In this document: positions 4,302 through 48,596 of the stretch, one piece after another
How the letters are laid out: each line of letters begins with the position of its first letter
Numbering within the stretch: the stretch's first letter is position 1
Origin: Scytolyngbya sp. HA4215-MV1
GTDB lineage: Bacteria > Cyanobacteriota > Cyanobacteriia > Leptolyngbyales > Leptolyngbyaceae
DNA: 64,000 bases
Assembly (NCBI GenBank): GCA_019359045.1
Contig: JAHHIA010000009.1
Span: 186,001 to 250,000, forward strand
Direction of reading: 5' to 3'
Program-made: the position numbers and the translations under genes
The notes under the pieces: model-generated
The model's database searches: none
What the model saw: the letters and a program-made list of their open reading frames with translations, nothing else
What the model was told of the DNA's origin: nothing

Positions 4302-4577
4302 CGAATAGCCTCGCTATAAAATAATACAGACGCATTCGTCGATGGTTAGACCATTTTGGAGTTTGGATTTGGGATTTTGGCAACCTCACCCCATGGGAAT
4401 TCCAGCCATTCATCTGCCAGGTTGTCCATTGAAATCGCTATCACATCTCTGCAAAGCCTACGTCCTGAATCTAAACCGTTATCGTACAGCAGATACGGCA
4501 AGAATGCAGGCGCTAGAAGGTAGATCCTAAAATTTCCCAACTCCCGATTCCTGCTCTTGACTCCTGACTCCTACTCC
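4302..4577. other. Intergenic spacer with degenerate repeats, no gene
   Basis: This 276-bp spacer separates the ParA-like gene from the upstream solute-binding-protein gene, both on the minus strand. It starts with a degenerate TTTGGATTT-type tract (about 4357-4381) and ends in the CTCCTGA-type tandem listed separately. Short frames on both strands have no family signature or convincing ribosome-binding site. Confidence 0.6.
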
Positions 4578-4590
4578 TCATTCCTCCCTC
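4536..4590. repeat. CTCCTGA-type short tandem repeat
   Basis: The tract holds degenerate heptamers of the ACTCCTG/ACTCCTA kind (ctcttgactcctgactcctactcctcattcctccctcaa in pieces). It overlaps the stop codon and the last codons (ELREE) of the adjacent solute-binding protein, so the repeat may have reshaped that C-terminus. Similar tracts occur at 12820-12852 and about 35097-35155. Confidence 0.6.
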
Positions 4591-12853: not shown

Positions 12854-13957
12854 TTAAAGCTGCACCATGTCAGAATATTCCGTCAGCAACTCGTCATAGG
12901 TCAGGCTGTCGGTCGCTTCTTGAGGACTCCACAGCAACGCGAATACCATTAAATAGTCTGCTGGCAATGCCGCAATTTTTTCCAGTGCCGCCTGAAGGTC
13001 TTCGGTGGTTCGGATCGAGTCGAACAGTGGTTGGTCATGGGCAGTGCCCACCAACAGCGTCACTACAATATAGGATGCGGGCGCTTCATCAGGGTCGAGT
13101 TGCACCTGCTGACGGCTAATTTTTCCTCCCACGCGCACCAGCGATTCAACGCTGAACTTGCTGCGTTCTTCGATCGCCAATTGATTGAACAATTCCTCTG
13201 CCGACTCGCGATCCTTAACCACCTGAGAACTTGCCAAGACATGTGTCCAGTTTTCAGGGGTTCGCAGCAGCGCCAGCGCACTTTCCTGAAGCTGTTGCAG
13301 TAACCCTTCTGGCGTGTTGGGATCGTAGTTTTCAATCAAGTTTGAAAGCTCAGATTGAATTTGACGGGCTTGTGCCAGCAGTGCAACTTGCACTTTACTG
13401 ACTGTCACCGTGTCGTTTTCCAGTACGTTTTCGGGAGCGGCAGCTCCCCGTAGTTTGCGGAAGGCAATAAAGAGGACGATCGCTGTGGGAATCCCCAGCA
13501 ATAATGACCAAAGCAACCAATTGGGTTGGGCAGCTGATTGATTGGCAACACCGCTATTGGCCCGATTGGGCACTGTACCTGTACCCGGCACTGGGATCAC
13601 GACCGTTCCACCCCCAGGCCGATTGTAGTAAGGATCGTTGTAAGGACGATTGTAGTAAGGATCGTTGTAAGGACGGTTGTTATTGAACTGAGAAGAGTTT
13701 GTCCGCTTTTTTTGAGGTGGTTGTTGAGTCGGTGAATCGGACTGGGAGCGATTGGGAGAACTAGGCTGACCGGGAGACCTGGGCTTGGTTCTAAAGGAAC
13801 CACCCTGACTGCGTCCCCCACTGCTTTTTGCGAGAACGACCTTGCCCAGATTGAAGCTAGAGGCAAGAGAACTGGCGCGAGGGGTCACTTCTACCAAGCT
13901 GAAGAGCAAAAGTGGTACGGCAGCGGTTAAAAAAAGTTTGAGTGGTCGTGTGTGCAT
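12854..13957 (-). CDS. DUF1517 domain membrane protein
   Basis: The protein (367 residues from the ATG at 13957) starts with a signal or anchor segment (LKLFLTAAVPLLLFSLVEV). A Ser/Pro/Asn-rich region follows, holding two copies of RPYNDPYYN that are encoded by a 36-bp tandem repeat. A single membrane helix (WLLWSLLLGIPTAIVLFIAF) comes next, and then the DUF1517 region (VTVSKVQVALLAQARQIQSE ... SLVRVGGKISR ... EAPASYIVVTLLVGTA). DUF1517 proteins are widespread in cyanobacteria and plastids; their function is not established. The open frame extends 15 codons upstream of the chosen ATG, which I prefer because it begins directly before the signal. Confidence 0.9.
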   Translation of the reverse strand: MHTRPLKLFLTAAVPLLLFSLVEVTPRASSLASSFNLGKVVLAKSSGGRSQGGSFRTKPRSPGQPSSPNRSQSDSPTQQPPQKKRTNSSQFNNNRPYNDPYYNRPYNDPYYNRPGGGTVVIPVPGTGTVPNRANSGVANQSAAQPNWLLWSLLLGIPTAIVLFIAFRKLRGAAAPENVLENDTVTVSKVQVALLAQARQIQSELSNLIENYDPNTPEGLLQQLQESALALLRTPENWTHVLASSQVVKDRESAEELFNQLAIEERSKFSVESLVRVGGKISRQQVQLDPDEAPASYIVVTLLVGTAHDQPLFDSIRTTEDLQAALEKIAALPADYLMVFALLWSPQEATDSLTYDELLTEYSDMVQL

Positions 13958-14188
13958 TATCTTGTCATATCCGGGTAGTGGCTCAATTTCAAACAGCCCC
14001 AAGACCCATTATTTCAATTCCGGTGTTTCAAAAGGGCAGTGGGTAGAGTTGAAACACCCTGCGATTCATCATTCAGAATTTACCCTCTATCTCTAGTGTG
14101 CCAGAATGCTTTCCAAATGAAACAGAGACCCGATCATTCTGGTTGCTGAGGTGCTGTATCCGAGTAGTGAGTTATCCTCAAGAGGGAG

Positions 14189-20594: not shown

Positions 20595-23312
20595 ATGCAA
20601 AGTCAACGCCTTTCTATTGAAATTCCGGCTTGTGCCTGGAGCCGTCCATTCGGTTTGGGCTGGGAAACACCCTACACCGTTCGTTATTCCAGCAATCTGG
20701 ATGATGGTCCCTGGCATGGGATGCCCTTAGGTGGTTTTGGAGCAGGCTGTATTGGACGATCTCCTCGTGGGGAGTTTAACCTCTGGCATCTAGATGGCGG
20801 AGAACATTGTTTTAAGACGCTGCCTGCTTGCCAGTTCAGTGTGTTTGAACAAGGGGGCGATCGCAATCAAGCCTACGCCCTCTGTACGCAACTACCGGAA
20901 GATGGCAGCTTGAGCACCTGGCAGTGGTATCCCGTGAGTGTTGGCAGAGACGCGGGGACGCGGGAACACAGCGGCACGGAGACGCAGGGAGAGGAAAGAG
21001 ATGGGGAGGACAGCGGAGAGGAAGAAGTAGAGTCCAAAATCCAAAATCCAAAATCCAAAATCACTACGGGGACTTATCACGCGCTCTATCCCCGCAGTTG
21101 GTTTACTTACGAGAATGTTTTGCAAGCCCAGTTAACTTGCGAACAGTTCTCGCCCATCTGGGCACACAGCTATCAAGAATCGAGTTATCCAGTGGCAGTT
21201 TTTCTCTGGACTGCCTATAACCCGACCGATCGCCCCCTCACTCTCAGCATTTTGTTGACCTGGCAAAATCTGGCGGGCTGGTTTACCAACGCGCTTAAGT
21301 CGCCCGATGTGAAAGTGCGCGATGATGGGAGTCCCGTTTACGCATACCAGGCAAAGTGGGGGAAAAGCCAGGGCAACTTTAATCGCTTGACCGGGGATGA
21401 GCAGCGGTTAGGGATTATGTTGGGTAAGCAGATGGGAGCGCAGTCGGCAGAGGGTCGTCCGGCTGAGGGGGATGGGCAATGGACGATCGCGACGCCACTC
21501 AATCCCCATCTGGCGGAAGTGTTCTACCACACGCGCTGGAACCCCGCGGGAGATGGCGCAGACTTGTGGAGCCAATTTGCTCAGGATGGCTCGATCGCGA
21601 ATGTGGATGATGAAACTCCGGCAGCAATAGACGAACAGATCGGCGGTGCGATCTCGGTGCGTTTTACTTTGAAACCAGGACAGACACGGCAAATTCCCTT
21701 CATTCTGGCATGGGATTTGCCAGTGACTGAATTTGCCGCAGGGGTAGAATACTTTCGTCGCTATACCGACTTTTTTGGGCGTACAGGCGACAATGCCTGG
21801 ACGATTGCTCGCACTGCCTTGAAACATCACACCACCTGGCGAGAAAAGATTTGCACCTGGCAACAACCGATCCTCGATCGGCAGGATTTGCCCGACTGGT
21901 TCAAGATGGCGCTGTTCAACGAACTGTACCTGCTAACGGATGGCGGTGCGCTCTGGAGTGCCGCCGATGAACGCGATCCAGTGGGGCAATTTGCTGTGCT
22001 GGAGTGTATCGACTACCGTTGGTACGAAAGTTTGGATGTCCGGCTTTACGGGTCGTTTGGCTTGTTGATGCTATTTCCCGAATTGGAAAAAGCAGTGATC
22101 CGAGCCTTCGCCAGGGCGATTCCAGTCAGGGACGATACGCCGCGCGTAGTGGGCTACTATTACACGATCGGGGCAGAAAGCCCCCTAGCGGTTCGCAAGG
22201 TTGCCGGAGCCACCCCTCATGACCTGGGTGCCCCCAATGAGCATGTTTGGGAAAAGACTAACTACACCAGCTATCAGGACTGCAACCTCTGGAAAGACCT
22301 GCCTAGCGATTTTGTTTTGCAGGTCTATCGCAACTATTTGCTGACTGGCGCCACCGATGAGGTGTTTCTGGCAGAGTGCTGGGATGCGATCGTCCAAACC
22401 CTTGCCTACCTCAAAACCTTTGACTGTGATGGGGATGGCATCCCCGAAAATTCGGGTGCTCCCGACCAAACCTTTGACGACTGGAAACTGCAAGGCGTCA
22501 GTGCCTACTGCGGGGGACTGTGGATCGCGGCATTGGAAGCAGCGATCGCGATCGGGCAAATCTTAGTGAACCGCACCTCCCTGGGAGAACAGGAAGCACC
22601 TGATTTTCTTCAAGCTCCAGCGTCCCTTATGCCGCAATACCAGTCATGGTTAGAGCAATCTCGTCCCATTTACCAGGAAAAGCTCTGGAATGGTCAGTAC
22701 TATCGTCTAGATAGTGACAGTGGCTCAGATGTAGTGATGGCAGATCAACTCTGCGGCCAGTTCTATGCCCGTTTGTTGAACCTACCCGATGTGGTACCGA
22801 TCGACTGTGCCCAGTCAGCATTGCAAACGGTATACGACAGTTGCTTTGTCAAATTCAACCAATATCTAGCATCGGGTGCTCTGCAAACCCAAACTTTTAC
22901 CTCCGTGCAGCAAGCCAGAGCTGCAGAACAACAGAGTGGCCCCCCCCAAAAAAGTCCACAATCCTCCAGCGAAGTAGCGCAGCTCCCTCACCAAAATCAA
23001 AAATCTACCGTCCCGATCGGGGCTGCCAACGGCGTCCGTCCCAATGGTGTCCCCGAAAACCCCAATGCCACCCATCCTCTCGAAGTCTGGACGGGGATCA
23101 ATTTTGGTTTAGCCGCATTCCTGATGCAAATGGGACTGCAGGCGGAAGCGTGGCAGCTAACCGAGGCGGTTGTTCGTCAAATCTATGAGAATGGGCTACA
23201 ATTCCGCACACCGGAAGCAATCACGGCAAGCGGCACCTTCCGCGCCTGTCACTATCTACGGGCAATGGCAATTTGGGCAATTTACGGCGTATTGATTAAT
23301 TTCGATCGCTGA
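20595..23312 (+). CDS. GH116 beta-glucosidase / glucosylceramidase-like protein
   Basis: This 905-residue protein belongs to glycoside hydrolase family 116 (bile-acid beta-glucosidase, GBA2, and bacterial beta-glucosidases). The N-domain has PLGGFGAGCIGRSPRGEFNL and WHLDGGEHCFKTLPACQFSV. The (alpha/alpha)6 catalytic domain has LYLLTDGGALWS, VLECIDYRWYESLDVRLYGS with the expected nucleophile Glu, and SGAPDQTFDDWKLQGVSAYC with the acid/base Asp. No signal peptide is seen, so it is cytoplasmic. Residues about 115-157 are an insertion encoded by a purine-rich repeat (see separate entry). A second low-complexity insertion lies at about residues 775-820 (PPQKSPQSSS, PHQNQKS). Substrate is unknown. 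Confidence 0.92.
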   Translation: MQSQRLSIEIPACAWSRPFGLGWETPYTVRYSSNLDDGPWHGMPLGGFGAGCIGRSPRGEFNLWHLDGGEHCFKTLPACQFSVFEQGGDRNQAYALCTQLPEDGSLSTWQWYPVSVGRDAGTREHSGTETQGEERDGEDSGEEEVESKIQNPKSKITTGTYHALYPRSWFTYENVLQAQLTCEQFSPIWAHSYQESSYPVAVFLWTAYNPTDRPLTLSILLTWQNLAGWFTNALKSPDVKVRDDGSPVYAYQAKWGKSQGNFNRLTGDEQRLGIMLGKQMGAQSAEGRPAEGDGQWTIATPLNPHLAEVFYHTRWNPAGDGADLWSQFAQDGSIANVDDETPAAIDEQIGGAISVRFTLKPGQTRQIPFILAWDLPVTEFAAGVEYFRRYTDFFGRTGDNAWTIARTALKHHTTWREKICTWQQPILDRQDLPDWFKMALFNELYLLTDGGALWSAADERDPVGQFAVLECIDYRWYESLDVRLYGSFGLLMLFPELEKAVIRAFARAIPVRDDTPRVVGYYYTIGAESPLAVRKVAGATPHDLGAPNEHVWEKTNYTSYQDCNLWKDLPSDFVLQVYRNYLLTGATDEVFLAECWDAIVQTLAYLKTFDCDGDGIPENSGAPDQTFDDWKLQGVSAYCGGLWIAALEAAIAIGQILVNRTSLGEQEAPDFLQAPASLMPQYQSWLEQSRPIYQEKLWNGQYYRLDSDSGSDVVMADQLCGQFYARLLNLPDVVPIDCAQSALQTVYDSCFVKFNQYLASGALQTQTFTSVQQARAAEQQSGPPQKSPQSSSEVAQLPHQNQKSTVPIGAANGVRPNGVPENPNATHPLEVWTGINFGLAAFLMQMGLQAEAWQLTEAVVRQIYENGLQFRTPEAITASGTFRACHYLRAMAIWAIYGVLINFDR
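20938..21063 (+). repeat. Repeat-derived in-frame insertion within GH116 gene
   Basis: A purine-rich tract (gcagagacgcggggacgcgg onward) is followed by four TCCAAAA-type units at 21033-21062, which encode ESKIQNPKSKI. The reading frame is kept. The same composite (purine-rich tract, then TCCAAAAT units) occurs inside recJ at 47319-47447. Confidence 0.75.
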
Positions 23313-43325: not shown

Positions 43326-43463
43326 CGTAACGACACCCGTAAGATTTTGGATTTTGGATAGCGCTCTGCGCCGTTTTACTAGAGGATTTTGGATTTTAAG
43401 TGTTCCACGGCTAAAGCCTCATGTTCCATGTCTAAGAATTCGATTCTAAACGCTGTTCGATGT

Positions 43464-46052: not shown

Positions 46053-46099
46053 AGGATGTCTAAACGGTGCAATCGTCTCCCCGCTTAGACATCCTTTTT
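46053..46099 (+). terminator. Intrinsic terminator after infC-like gene
   Basis: AGGATGTCTAA (46053-46063) pairs with TTAGACATCCT (46085-46095), followed by TTTT. The 21-nt loop is long. It ends 20 bp before the recJ start. Confidence 0.75.
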
Positions 46100-46118
46100 G
46101 ACGTTTTGGGCTGCCTGC

Positions 46119-48596
46119 ATGTCTCAATTGCTCCCTCAATGGCAAGTGCGATCGTCGGTTCAGCCACCCGATTGGCTGGTTGCGGCAATTCATCAACACT
46201 CGCCAGACCTAGTTGGGCTATATGCTGCCCAACTGTTGTGGCAGCGCGGAATTTGTGCCCCTGACCAAATTGCAGGTTTTCTTGATCCCCAATACTACCA
46301 GCCAGCCAGCCCATTTGAGTTTGGGCAAGAGATGGACTGGGCGATCGATCGCTTGCAACGAGCACAGGTAAACCAGGAAATCATCGCGATTTGGGGGGAT
46401 TTTGATGCGGATGGGGTCACTGCCACGGCTGTTTTGTGGGATGGGTTAGGACAATTTTTCACCCCAAATCAACAGCTTTTCTACTACATCCCCAATCGTA
46501 TTACCGAATCCCACGGCTTATCGATCACTGGATTACACCGTCTGAAACAACAGGGTTGTTCGCTCATTGTGACCTGCGATACGGGCAGCAGCAATTGGGC
46601 AGAAATTCAACTGGCAAGCCGCCTGGGCATGGATGTGATTGTGACCGATCACCATACTTTACCGGACGATCGCCCCCCCGTGGTTGCTATTCTCAATCCC
46701 CGCTATTTGCCAGCCACACATCCCCTAGCTACCCTATCAGGCGTTGCCGTTGCCTATAAGCTCATAGAAGCCTTGTACCAGGCTGCACCGACTCCTCCCA
46801 CGAAACCACTGGAACACCTCCTCGATCTGGTTGCCATTGGGCTAATTGCTGATTTGGTAGAGTTGCGAGGCGATTGTCGCTATTTGGCACAACGAGGCAT
46901 CGATCGCTTGCAGCAACAGTTATCCCCAGACCGACAAACTCGTCCTGGTATCGCTCGTCTACTGGAGTTGTGCAAACGCAGTGGCGATCGTCCTACCGAT
47001 ATCTCCTTTGGCTTGGGACCCCGCATCAATGCAGTCAGCCGTATTCAGGGCGATGCTCATTTTTGCGTTGAGCTACTGACTAGTCAGGATGCAGCGCGCT
47101 GTCGAGAATTGGCAGAAGCCACGGAACTGGCAAACACTCGTCGCAAAGCTCTGCAACGGAATGTGTACCAGCAAGCTGTCGCTAAACTAGCACAATTGGA
47201 TCTCTCTACGACTCGTGTCATTGTGCTGGTCGATGCCCAATGGGCAGTCGGTGTGTTGGGTTTGGTCGCAGGGCAGATCGCTCAAGAATATGGCTGTCCA
47301 ACAATTTTGTTGAGTACGGAGGGAGGAGAGGAGATACAAGGAGTCAGAGAACCTGCAGAAACATTGGGAGAGCAGACAGGTGAAGCAAGAGATGGGGAGA
47401 ATGCGGCAGATGGGGGAATCCAATCCAAAATTCAAAATCCAAAATTTCCTGTTCTGGCACGAGGATCAGCGCGATCGGTGAACCAGATTGACCTTTACCA
47501 ACTGGTGCAGGAGCAGGCACATTTATTGCATCGATTTGGTGGACATCCGTTTGCGGCAGGGTTGAGTTTGCCTGTTGAGAATATTGCTTTGTTTACAGAA
47601 GCAGTGAATCAAAAACTGCGACGGTTGACAGAGGGCGAGCGGGTATCGTCGGTGCAGGCAGATTTGGTGGTCACAGTTTCGGAGTTAGGCAAGCGATTGT
47701 TTCAGGAATTGAAGCTGCTAGAACCTTGTGGAATGGGCAATCCAGTACCCAGGTTGTTGGTTCAAAACGGTTGGTTTGAGCGAGTCTGGAACCGCAATAT
47801 CGAAGATTGGAAGGGTGGTAAGCAGCGCTATATTCAGACAGAGTTTGTATTACGGGATGATTCTGACTCGGCAGGGTTTGCGGGGGTTTGGTGGGGACAT
47901 TACAAGGATGAGATTCCTGTCGATCGTTGTGATGTGATCGTCGAGTTAGACAGTAACTCCTACAAAAAACGCTATGAGGTACGGCTCATTGCAGTCCGGA
48001 CCGCAGCGGCGATGCAGTCGGTGCAATCCGCCGCAACACTCGATTGGTTGATCGATTTGCGCCCCGAAAAGGCGATTGCAACCCAGACAGTTGAATCCTC
48101 CCACGCTACTCGCCCCTCTCCCCCCCCGGAAGCGCTGGTTCTGCAACAATGCCCAACCAGTTGGAGCGAATTGCAAATCTGGTTTCGTCGTGCCGTCCAG
48201 GAGCAGCGATCGTTGGCGATCGCCTACCCCGCCCCAGTCAGCCGTTCTCCGATCTCAATCTGGCAACAACTCGCCGGGATTGCCAAGTACCTCAGCCGCA
48301 CAGGCAACACTGCCACCCGTTCACAACTCTACGACAAGTTGGGAATTGGCGATCGTCCGCTGCAACTGGGCTTTTATGCGCTGAGACTGGCAGGCTTTGC
48401 TGTGACTTATGAAGGGCAGGCGTTTCACCTCACTTGGCAACCTGATCCCTCAATACTAGCCACTGATCTCACATTGACCGAGGCGATCGAGCAATTTTTG
48501 ACCGCAATTCGAGAAGAACACTTTCGACGACAATATTTTTACCAAATGCCTTTGGCAACCATGCAGGCATTGGCAAGGCAAACGGTGACACAATAG
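46119..48596 (+). CDS. recJ: Single-stranded-DNA-specific exonuclease RecJ
   Basis: RecJ (825 residues) degrades single-stranded DNA 5'-3' in recombination and repair. Motifs of the DHH phosphoesterase are WGDFDADGVTATA, VTCDTGSSNW, DVIVTDHHTLPDDRPPVVAI, and LVAIGLIADLVELRGDCRYL. DHHA1 follows with RFGGHPFAAGLSLP (GG-HxxAAG). I chose the ATG at 46119; a TTG 21 bp earlier falls inside the terminator. Residues about 400-443 are an in-frame repeat-derived insertion (see separate entry) between LLS-type and ARGSARS motifs. The protein has a long C-terminal extension (from about 640) often seen in cyanobacterial RecJ. Confidence 0.94.
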   Translation: MSQLLPQWQVRSSVQPPDWLVAAIHQHSPDLVGLYAAQLLWQRGICAPDQIAGFLDPQYYQPASPFEFGQEMDWAIDRLQRAQVNQEIIAIWGDFDADGVTATAVLWDGLGQFFTPNQQLFYYIPNRITESHGLSITGLHRLKQQGCSLIVTCDTGSSNWAEIQLASRLGMDVIVTDHHTLPDDRPPVVAILNPRYLPATHPLATLSGVAVAYKLIEALYQAAPTPPTKPLEHLLDLVAIGLIADLVELRGDCRYLAQRGIDRLQQQLSPDRQTRPGIARLLELCKRSGDRPTDISFGLGPRINAVSRIQGDAHFCVELLTSQDAARCRELAEATELANTRRKALQRNVYQQAVAKLAQLDLSTTRVIVLVDAQWAVGVLGLVAGQIAQEYGCPTILLSTEGGEEIQGVREPAETLGEQTGEARDGENAADGGIQSKIQNPKFPVLARGSARSVNQIDLYQLVQEQAHLLHRFGGHPFAAGLSLPVENIALFTEAVNQKLRRLTEGERVSSVQADLVVTVSELGKRLFQELKLLEPCGMGNPVPRLLVQNGWFERVWNRNIEDWKGGKQRYIQTEFVLRDDSDSAGFAGVWWGHYKDEIPVDRCDVIVELDSNSYKKRYEVRLIAVRTAAAMQSVQSAATLDWLIDLRPEKAIATQTVESSHATRPSPPPEALVLQQCPTSWSELQIWFRRAVQEQRSLAIAYPAPVSRSPISIWQQLAGIAKYLSRTGNTATRSQLYDKLGIGDRPLQLGFYALRLAGFAVTYEGQAFHLTWQPDPSILATDLTLTEAIEQFLTAIREEHFRRQYFYQMPLATMQALARQTVTQ
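47319..47447 (+). repeat. Repeat-derived in-frame insertion within recJ
   Basis: A purine-rich tract (gagggaggagaggagatac onward) runs into TCCAAAATTCAAAATCCAAAAT, encoding SKIQNPK. It is the same composite as at 20938-21063 in the GH116 gene, about 129 bp (43 codons), and keeps the frame. It lies between ILLS and ARGSARS, a surface loop in known RecJ structures. Confidence 0.7.

Follow-up and report, generated by a model that had tools for sequence, protein, structure and literature searches.

Background

The short tandemly repeated repetitive (STRR) heptamers of cyanobacteria are said to have been described by Mazel in 1990, and the small dispersed repeats (SDR) by Elhai in 2008, reportedly as elements of 21-27 nt that often lie in heptamers and have a hairpin structure. 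In passages of two papers, STRR are treated as dispersed 7-bp units of filamentous cyanobacteria (PMC2670836, PMC4692102), and the SDR work of Elhai 2008 is cited in a passage of PMC4390886. According to passages of PMC4692102, 68% of the GGGGA(C/T)T arrays in Nostoc 7120 are intergenic, so that some were already known to lie in genes; heptamer repeats are described there as underrepresented on the coding strand of ORFs.

Passages of three papers describe Rickettsia palindromic elements (RPE) as one family that is located in frame in many unrelated proteins (PMC10969869, PMC3767692, PMC3733652). Intragenic GTAG/CGTC REPs are described in part of PMC3733652 as small in-gene repeats, many of which lie in genes for pseudouridine synthases or for the synthesis and repair of DNA. 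Further literature on such repeats includes passages of PMC2694212. Among the matches listed for the open-access literature there was no report of in-frame heptamer or SDR inserts recurring at loops of cyanobacterial proteins.

The current work concerns an insert in the recJ gene of Scytolyngbya sp. HA4215-MV1. The gene lies in a stretch of 64,000 nucleotides that was analyzed as a whole and is called the window below. The insert is probably an instance of protein-coding DNA made of cyanobacterial short repeats, namely heptamers (STRR) and small repeats nested in them, in permissive loops.

Results

The recJ gene and its insert

The recJ gene (46098..48596, plus strand) is an intact open ORF of 832 aa with DHH, DHHA1 and RecJ_OB domains. 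Its loop 1 (residues 407-453; 47316..47456, plus strand), which has as few as 5 residues in other RecJs, is a hot spot and holds a repeat composite. The 5' arm of the composite (47319..47421, plus strand) is purine- and G-rich and contains GGAGTCA and GAGATGGGGAG words. It is followed by a block of 3.4 copies of (AATCCAA)n with period 7 (47422..47445, plus strand; translation SKIQNPK). The ORF and its translation bear out the earlier note as to sequence, frame and position: TCCAAAATTCAAAATCCAAAAT stands at 47424-47445, after the purine-rich tract, and codes for ...GIQSKIQNPKF between PTILLS and ARGSARS. The insert is in frame and stop-free, and the gene is not broken.

With at most one mismatch, TCCAAAATCCAAAAT occurs 7 times in the window (0.05 expected), and there are 24 exact occurrences in the genome versus 0 for the reversed pattern. 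A purine-rich AGGAGTC tract, with CCAAAAT heptamers about 160 bp further on, is located at and past a gene end (4353..4585, minus strand). The window also has a 27-bp tandem repeat (13616-13680; 2.4 copies, 94% matches), whose period is a multiple of three and which overlaps the minus-strand ORF 12854-14002.

In three alignments with solved RecJs the alignment stops at residue 405-408 and restarts at 453-454, with 1-5 residues between. A structural model built with 47 aligned RecJs has a mean pLDDT of 84.3; residues 410-446 have pLDDT below 50 and lie between DHHA1 strands 402-407 and 453-459. According to the model, the insert lies at the tip of a DHHA1 beta-hairpin, in a surface loop. Loop 2 (residues 651-685, borders set by alignment anchors; 48048..48152, plus strand) is a second variable loop with modeled pLDDT below 50 at 662-669, and heptamer arrays are located there in other cyanobacteria.

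The RecJ loop across cyanobacteria

RecJ is present in 57 of 58 genomes, the own genome included; no member of the window's own genus is in the kinship lists. The choice of RecJ followed from the earlier note, which had pointed to it, and the other genomes were not selected in this way. We obtained the loop from 109 of 110 RecJ loci, and all 101 distinct loops, 6-77 codons long, are free of stops. A frameshifted copy would escape the extraction, which requires that the two flanks share a frame; only L069 failed. In the homology search, the matched stretch of some homologues contains one stop (e.g., L078 and L081, stretches ending at the loop).

Short loops such as TIDGEY look like the ground state. 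Many long loops consist of lineage-specific repeats (GEWGVGS, LSTQHSA, TQNSKLKTQN, SAVSGQQ, SKIQNPK); the repeats at this one site differ between lineages, and the loop peptides are not conserved. Tandem arrays with a unit of 6-10 bp were found in 41 of the 101 distinct loops, compared with 0-4 (mean 2.25) of 101 upstream RecJ segments of the same length and 0-4 codon-shuffled loops in 20 draws each. At least 23 changes between array and no array are needed on a tree made without the loop.

The density of arrays found by TRF (period 5-15, score at least 40) was compared in 80 named RecJ loci retrieved from the genomes. Per kb there are 6.9 arrays in the loop and 0.29 in the remainder of the RecJ ORF (taken from stop to stop, hence with loop 2 and the sequence upstream). 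Other ORFs have 0.13 per kb, and the figure outside ORFs is 1.3, where "outside" includes up to 60 nt from ORF ends. The loop has 45 such arrays in 30 loci. Arrays with period 7 number 25 in the loop, 32 in the rest of the RecJ ORF, 2 in other ORFs and 75 outside. Periods that are multiples of three make up 12 of 45 arrays in the loop versus 11 (or 12) of 130 outside ORFs (Fisher p = 0.004 with 11). The RecJ loop is a hot spot across cyanobacteria.

Array copy number is graded among the related Nostoc loops L096, L114, L130, L105 and L097. Another Nostoc loop (L110) is 8 codons longer than L138 and L152 and has a palindromic piece (GAGACGCGATTAATCGCGTCT) that is absent from both. A second RecJ paralogue (L248-L267; 20 regions picked from the homologue list, loop length by the measure of that script) has a short loop of 8-10 residues in 18 of 20 genomes, including the own genome, and loops of 29 and 37 residues in the other two. 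Therefore not every such loop tolerates inserts.

Comparison with the GH116 gene

The GH116 glucosidase gene of the window (20595..23312, plus strand; 905 aa) has a composite in its loop 1 (20934..21071, plus strand) with period-7 heptamers at 21033-21062. The flanks align to the solved homologue 9vmj, with a gap from 117 to 158. Loop 2 of this protein (22857..23018, plus strand) is a second variable loop, with composites in relatives.

The earlier note had taken the RecJ and GH116 inserts for the same composite, alike in length and order of parts, and had proposed a defined mobile or amplifying unit of 125-130 bp. The order of parts is indeed the same, and bases 61-127 of the 129-base recJ composite (67 bases) align to GH116 with 76% identity; the remaining bases are unmatched. 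The lengths are also alike (47 and 46 codons). As GH116 loop 1 varies from 3 to 61 codons over relatives and the RecJ loop varies as widely, the equal length looks like a coincidence, and we rejected it as a mark of one unit.

In the 6.6-Mb genome the best 40 of 68 candidates for the recJ composite were scored, so that all counts are lower bounds, and coding status was judged only where a match had a locus. A PMT-type gene (L049) is similar over bases 71-129 (59 bases, 71%). The other matches (46 in all) cover the heptamer tail only or, once, a short purine stretch. Among the best 40 of 68 candidates scored, no further match covers the first 60 bases of the 5' arm, and no second copy of the full 129 bp was found. 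The defined mobile composite was therefore not borne out, since no second full copy is among the genome matches scored. The recJ composite has decayed too far for assignment to any of the units A, B and C described below.

Sharing of repeats within genomes

In the 16 genomes that have both genes, the RecJ and GH116 loops within a genome have 123 9-mers in common versus 20.6 expected for mismatched genomes (permutation p <= 5e-5). Five genomes account for the signal (G012, 51; G003, 28; G005, 17; G019, 16; G000, 10); one genome has one shared 9-mer and ten have none. Two genomes that share nothing were kept in the test: G009, where L069 is without a usable loop, and G017, where GH116 loop 2 is uncovered. 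In G012, a stretch of 64 bp is identical in the RecJ and GH116 loops. Genes of one genome thus share repeats, strongly in five of the 16, though the repeats differ between lineages.

Heptamers and units A and B in the own genome

The heptamer is in frame in 12 genes of the own genome (38 rows examined). These encode RecJ, GH116, Mfd, NadE, a molybdopterin oxidoreductase, a glycosyl-transferase-3 enzyme, a solute-binding protein, an MFS-like protein (Pfam below the cut-off), a BPD transporter, a PMT-type protein, a GNAT protein and a pyruvyl transferase. For two of these, the BPD transporter and the pyruvyl transferase, the true start may be downstream of the heptamer, which lies close to the N terminus (noted for L020 and L045). 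Solved homologues were compared for four of the 12 genes. Besides RecJ and GH116, NadE has a gap (472 to 511) and the alignment of Mfd is broken over a wider stretch.

Two units of about 50-65 bp are dispersed in the same genome. Unit A was found in 6 places (all 15 candidates scored), five of them in genes, with two and three copies in two frames; the hosts are the molybdopterin oxidoreductase, the solute-binding protein, MetH, RecG and DnaG. Unit B has at least 7 places (best 40 of 51 candidates scored). Five are in genes, all in one frame (MutM, NadE, a pseudouridine synthase, MutS2 and a CLC/CBS/Usp protein), and two are outside, with a free-standing copy in the window at 43336..43396 (minus strand). 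Ten of the 13 places found for both units are thus inside conserved genes named by Pfam. The loci L034 and L237, with short ORFs of 95 and 137 aa, were excluded from coding counts. By raw count, replication and repair proteins make up 6 of the 19 named insert genes of the own genome (RecJ, Mfd, RecG, DnaG, MutM, MutS2).

Two side observations concern these loci. Replication and repair genes, together with the pseudouridine synthase, are prominent among the in-frame hosts (L004, L025, L239, L240, L242, L246, L245). A TCCAAAAT block ends 5-15 nt from a predicted ORF edge, often the start, in L005, L013, L014, L016, L017, L021, L043 and L044; near ORF edges the block may act in the ribosome-binding region or displace it.

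Unit C in a relative

In the relative G012, unit C consists of heptamers around a 24-nt piece. It has at least 37 matches, among them 16 near-full places (best 40 of 65 candidates scored; L212, a short locus, was skipped, L201 was counted with L198 as the same gene, and in L192, cut by the contig end, the core position was placed by hand). The information profile of the 16 copies shows a sharp core of about 50-60 bp that fades into variable arms. Fifteen of these places are in ORFs of 367-945 aa and one is outside.

In all 15 ORFs the unit has the same strand and frame and reads, apart from minor variation, IQNSKF-GSADSPEA-KIQNS. Since each copy has 2-4 open frames, the chance of a single frame is about 1.6e-7 under independence of the copies, an assumption that may not hold. 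By Pfam the hosts include RecJ, GH116, an LpxB-type protein, a subtilase, a LeuA-type synthase, an nSTAND protein, a sigma factor, an SIS-domain protein, an ABC ATPase, a histidine kinase, DnaX, MutM, an NQR2 protein and two TPR-type proteins (one below the Pfam cut-off). Partial copies are in a carbamoyltransferase, a GNAT protein, a decarboxylase, two histidine kinases and CobN- and CobB-type proteins. L202, L203, L205 and L206 (G012 contigs 79 and 108) are unit C variants in which the first piece contains another, nested one of about 24 nt as judged by eye.

None of 19 orthologue pairs has unit C in G022, which is of the same genus, and only heptamer matches were found in the G022 genome. 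Four orthologue sites are nearly empty (5, 10, 13 and 14 residues between conserved blocks), and others carry a different insert. The MutM genes of G012 and G022 have the same four heptamers, and G012 has two 24-nt pieces in addition. These stand in tandem, the first being read in another open frame. In MutM and other genes of G012 such pieces lie between ATTC and AAA; they are absent from the recJ of the window. The target duplication proposed for a mobile unit was not seen in the MutM pair, the one clean comparison, the other G012/G022 pairs being too diverged to define borders.

The MutM loop has at least 47 residues in 7 of 21 distinct genes parsed (22 loci parsed by a regular expression, 9 missed). 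In relatives, GH116 loops 1 and 2 and the MutM loop are hot spots like the RecJ loop. Altogether 25 of the 29 places found for units A, B and C are in long ORFs. Random insertion followed by a frame filter should leave relatively more copies outside ORFs, though this expectation is qualitative.

Order of arms and hairpins

G-skew is stronger in the 5' than in the 3' half of all 27 loops that are 36 codons or longer. A strict change from G to C was found in 21 of these 27 loops (codon-shuffle maximum 9 in 500), in 21 of 28 loops of 21-35 codons (maximum 11) and in 17 of 32 loops of 13-20 codons (maximum 11). There is no excess in loops of 6-12 codons (1 of 14 versus 1.3 expected). The recJ insert is an exception to the rule, as its 3' half is still slightly G-skewed (0.21). 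A G-then-C order is its own reverse complement and thus carries no orientation.

Two Nostoc loops fold as strong hairpins (z -5.2 and -5.0). The signal of the GH116 composite is weak (z -1.25), and no hairpin was found for the recJ composite (fold z = +0.79). A stretch of 35 nt that includes the 24-nt unit of G012 gave z = 0.18, with no clear sign of a hairpin. We therefore rejected a general hairpin, and hairpin formation lies outside the general explanation.

Discussion

The reading that we prefer for the recJ insert has two layers. The first would be arrays of 7-bp (also 8-9 bp) units at fixed surface loops, usually with a G-rich arm and then a C-rich or AC-rich arm, whose copy number and unit change between lineages, presumably by replication slippage. 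The second would be small dispersed units, either 24-nt pieces nested in heptamers or wholes of about 50-65 bp, which appear to be copied from place to place within one genome, including from gene to gene. The copying might proceed by recombination between heptamer arms or through an RNA or ssDNA intermediate. Judging from the sequence, the inserts would be translated, apparently without a conserved peptide function in RecJ, and would be near-neutral. They would survive because the loop is permissive, because arrays rarely hold stops and because the net length is a multiple of three; a heptamer array gives one 7-residue cycle in all three frames. The observations behind this reading are frame and openness, position in loops, recurrence of hot spots, sharing within genomes, the single frame of units B and C and the clean 24-nt difference in MutM.

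The data are consistent with repeats that tolerate coding loops or are even resident in them. As a tentative extension, the repeats could be coding-resident elements that spread from gene to gene and not from an intergenic pool, a short frame-neutral unit being copied between heptamer arms. Copying between the arms of loops would keep both strand and reading frame. Disordered loops would then possibly be the habitat of the element, and replication and repair proteins its favoured hosts.

Local replication slippage alone, with a low-complexity loop grown separately in each gene and no transfer from one gene to another, explains the graded array lengths in related Nostoc loops and agrees with the higher share of multiple-of-three periods in the RecJ loop than outside ORFs. 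For the recJ insert itself it stands. However, it fails to explain units common to several genes: it conflicts with the words shared within genomes and with the 64 bp identical in RecJ and GH116 of G012, and it is contradicted for units A, B and C, which are non-tandem and lie in many genes. We thus consider it unlikely, and the opinion of the earlier note that slippage alone does not suffice was right in view of the common repeat words and the dispersed units. The same note had set widely differing borders or gradual length change against a defined unit; graded copy number is indeed present in Nostoc, on top of the spread of units. Its amplifying unit survives in a wider sense, as dispersed units of about 50-65 bp in coding genes, and not as a composite of 125-130 bp. 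A single transposable composite of that size, with borders and a target duplication, would agree with the like length and order of parts in RecJ and GH116 and with the weak similarity of the PMT-type gene over both parts. It is very improbable given the lack of a second full copy among the scored matches of the 6.6-Mb genome, the core of only about 50-60 bp with variable arms in unit C, and the MutM pair without duplication.

Selection on the insert is the subject of a further alternative, which we regard as improbable: a functional linker, or a mutability switch in which 7-bp units in a repair gene cause reversible frameshifts and mutator cells. Six of 19 named insert genes of the own genome belong to replication and repair, and passages of PMC3733652 report a similar bias and a mutator idea for other repeats. 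Yet this share is a raw count, RecJ was the starting point, and only RecJ, DnaX and MutM of about 22 genes in G012 (partial matches included) belong to this class. Neither the stop-free state of all 101 RecJ loops nor their non-conserved peptides favor such a role, and the enriched periods are those that cannot shift the frame. Removal of the insert after transcription (an intron, an intein or translational bypass) would suit only its sudden, sequence-unrelated nature. It would not require 101 distinct loops to be stop-free and in frame, or unit C to keep one frame in 15 of 15 ORFs, and is extremely improbable.

If the preferred reading is true, cyanobacteria have their own equivalent of the palindromic elements of Rickettsia, with numerous insertions to count and isolates to study, and it becomes testable how small repeats without genes enter essential proteins and leave them unbroken. 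The reading would account for hypervariable loops in cyanobacterial RecJ, MutM and GH116, which might otherwise be taken for adaptive linkers or for errors of annotation, and would provide natural data on insertion-tolerant protein loops.

Each of the known systems resembles the inserts in part. Like STRR, they contain tandem 7-bp units (47422-47445 and 21033-21062) and are dispersed, with the 24 exact copies of the heptamer word in the genome. Unlike STRR, the arrays are found repeatedly, and in frame, at the same protein loops, where lineages differ in the unit, and the 5' arm is G-rich on the coding strand, as opposed to the strand bias described in passages of PMC4692102. The likeness to SDR, as these are reportedly described, lies in 24-nt units set in heptamers and nested in each other; the units found here differ in being inside conserved genes, mostly in one frame, and the fold of the 24-nt unit of G012 lends a hairpin no clear support. 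No target duplication in MutM of G012 and G022 and, by eye, no terminal repeats of unit C set them apart from MITEs. With GTAG/CGTC REPs they have in common the location in repair and replication genes and a pseudouridine synthase, whereas units A-C have no GTAG or CGTC tag at their ends. RPE, compared by description, are similar in being in frame in unrelated ORFs (unit C, 15 of 16 places; A, 5 of 6; B, 5 of 7). Unlike RPE, the inserts are heptamer arrays and 24-nt pieces with a core of about 50-60 bp, not a palindrome of 100-150 bp, and the recJ composite shows no such fold; furthermore, orthologues of the same genus often differ at the site, with another insert or next to nothing there.
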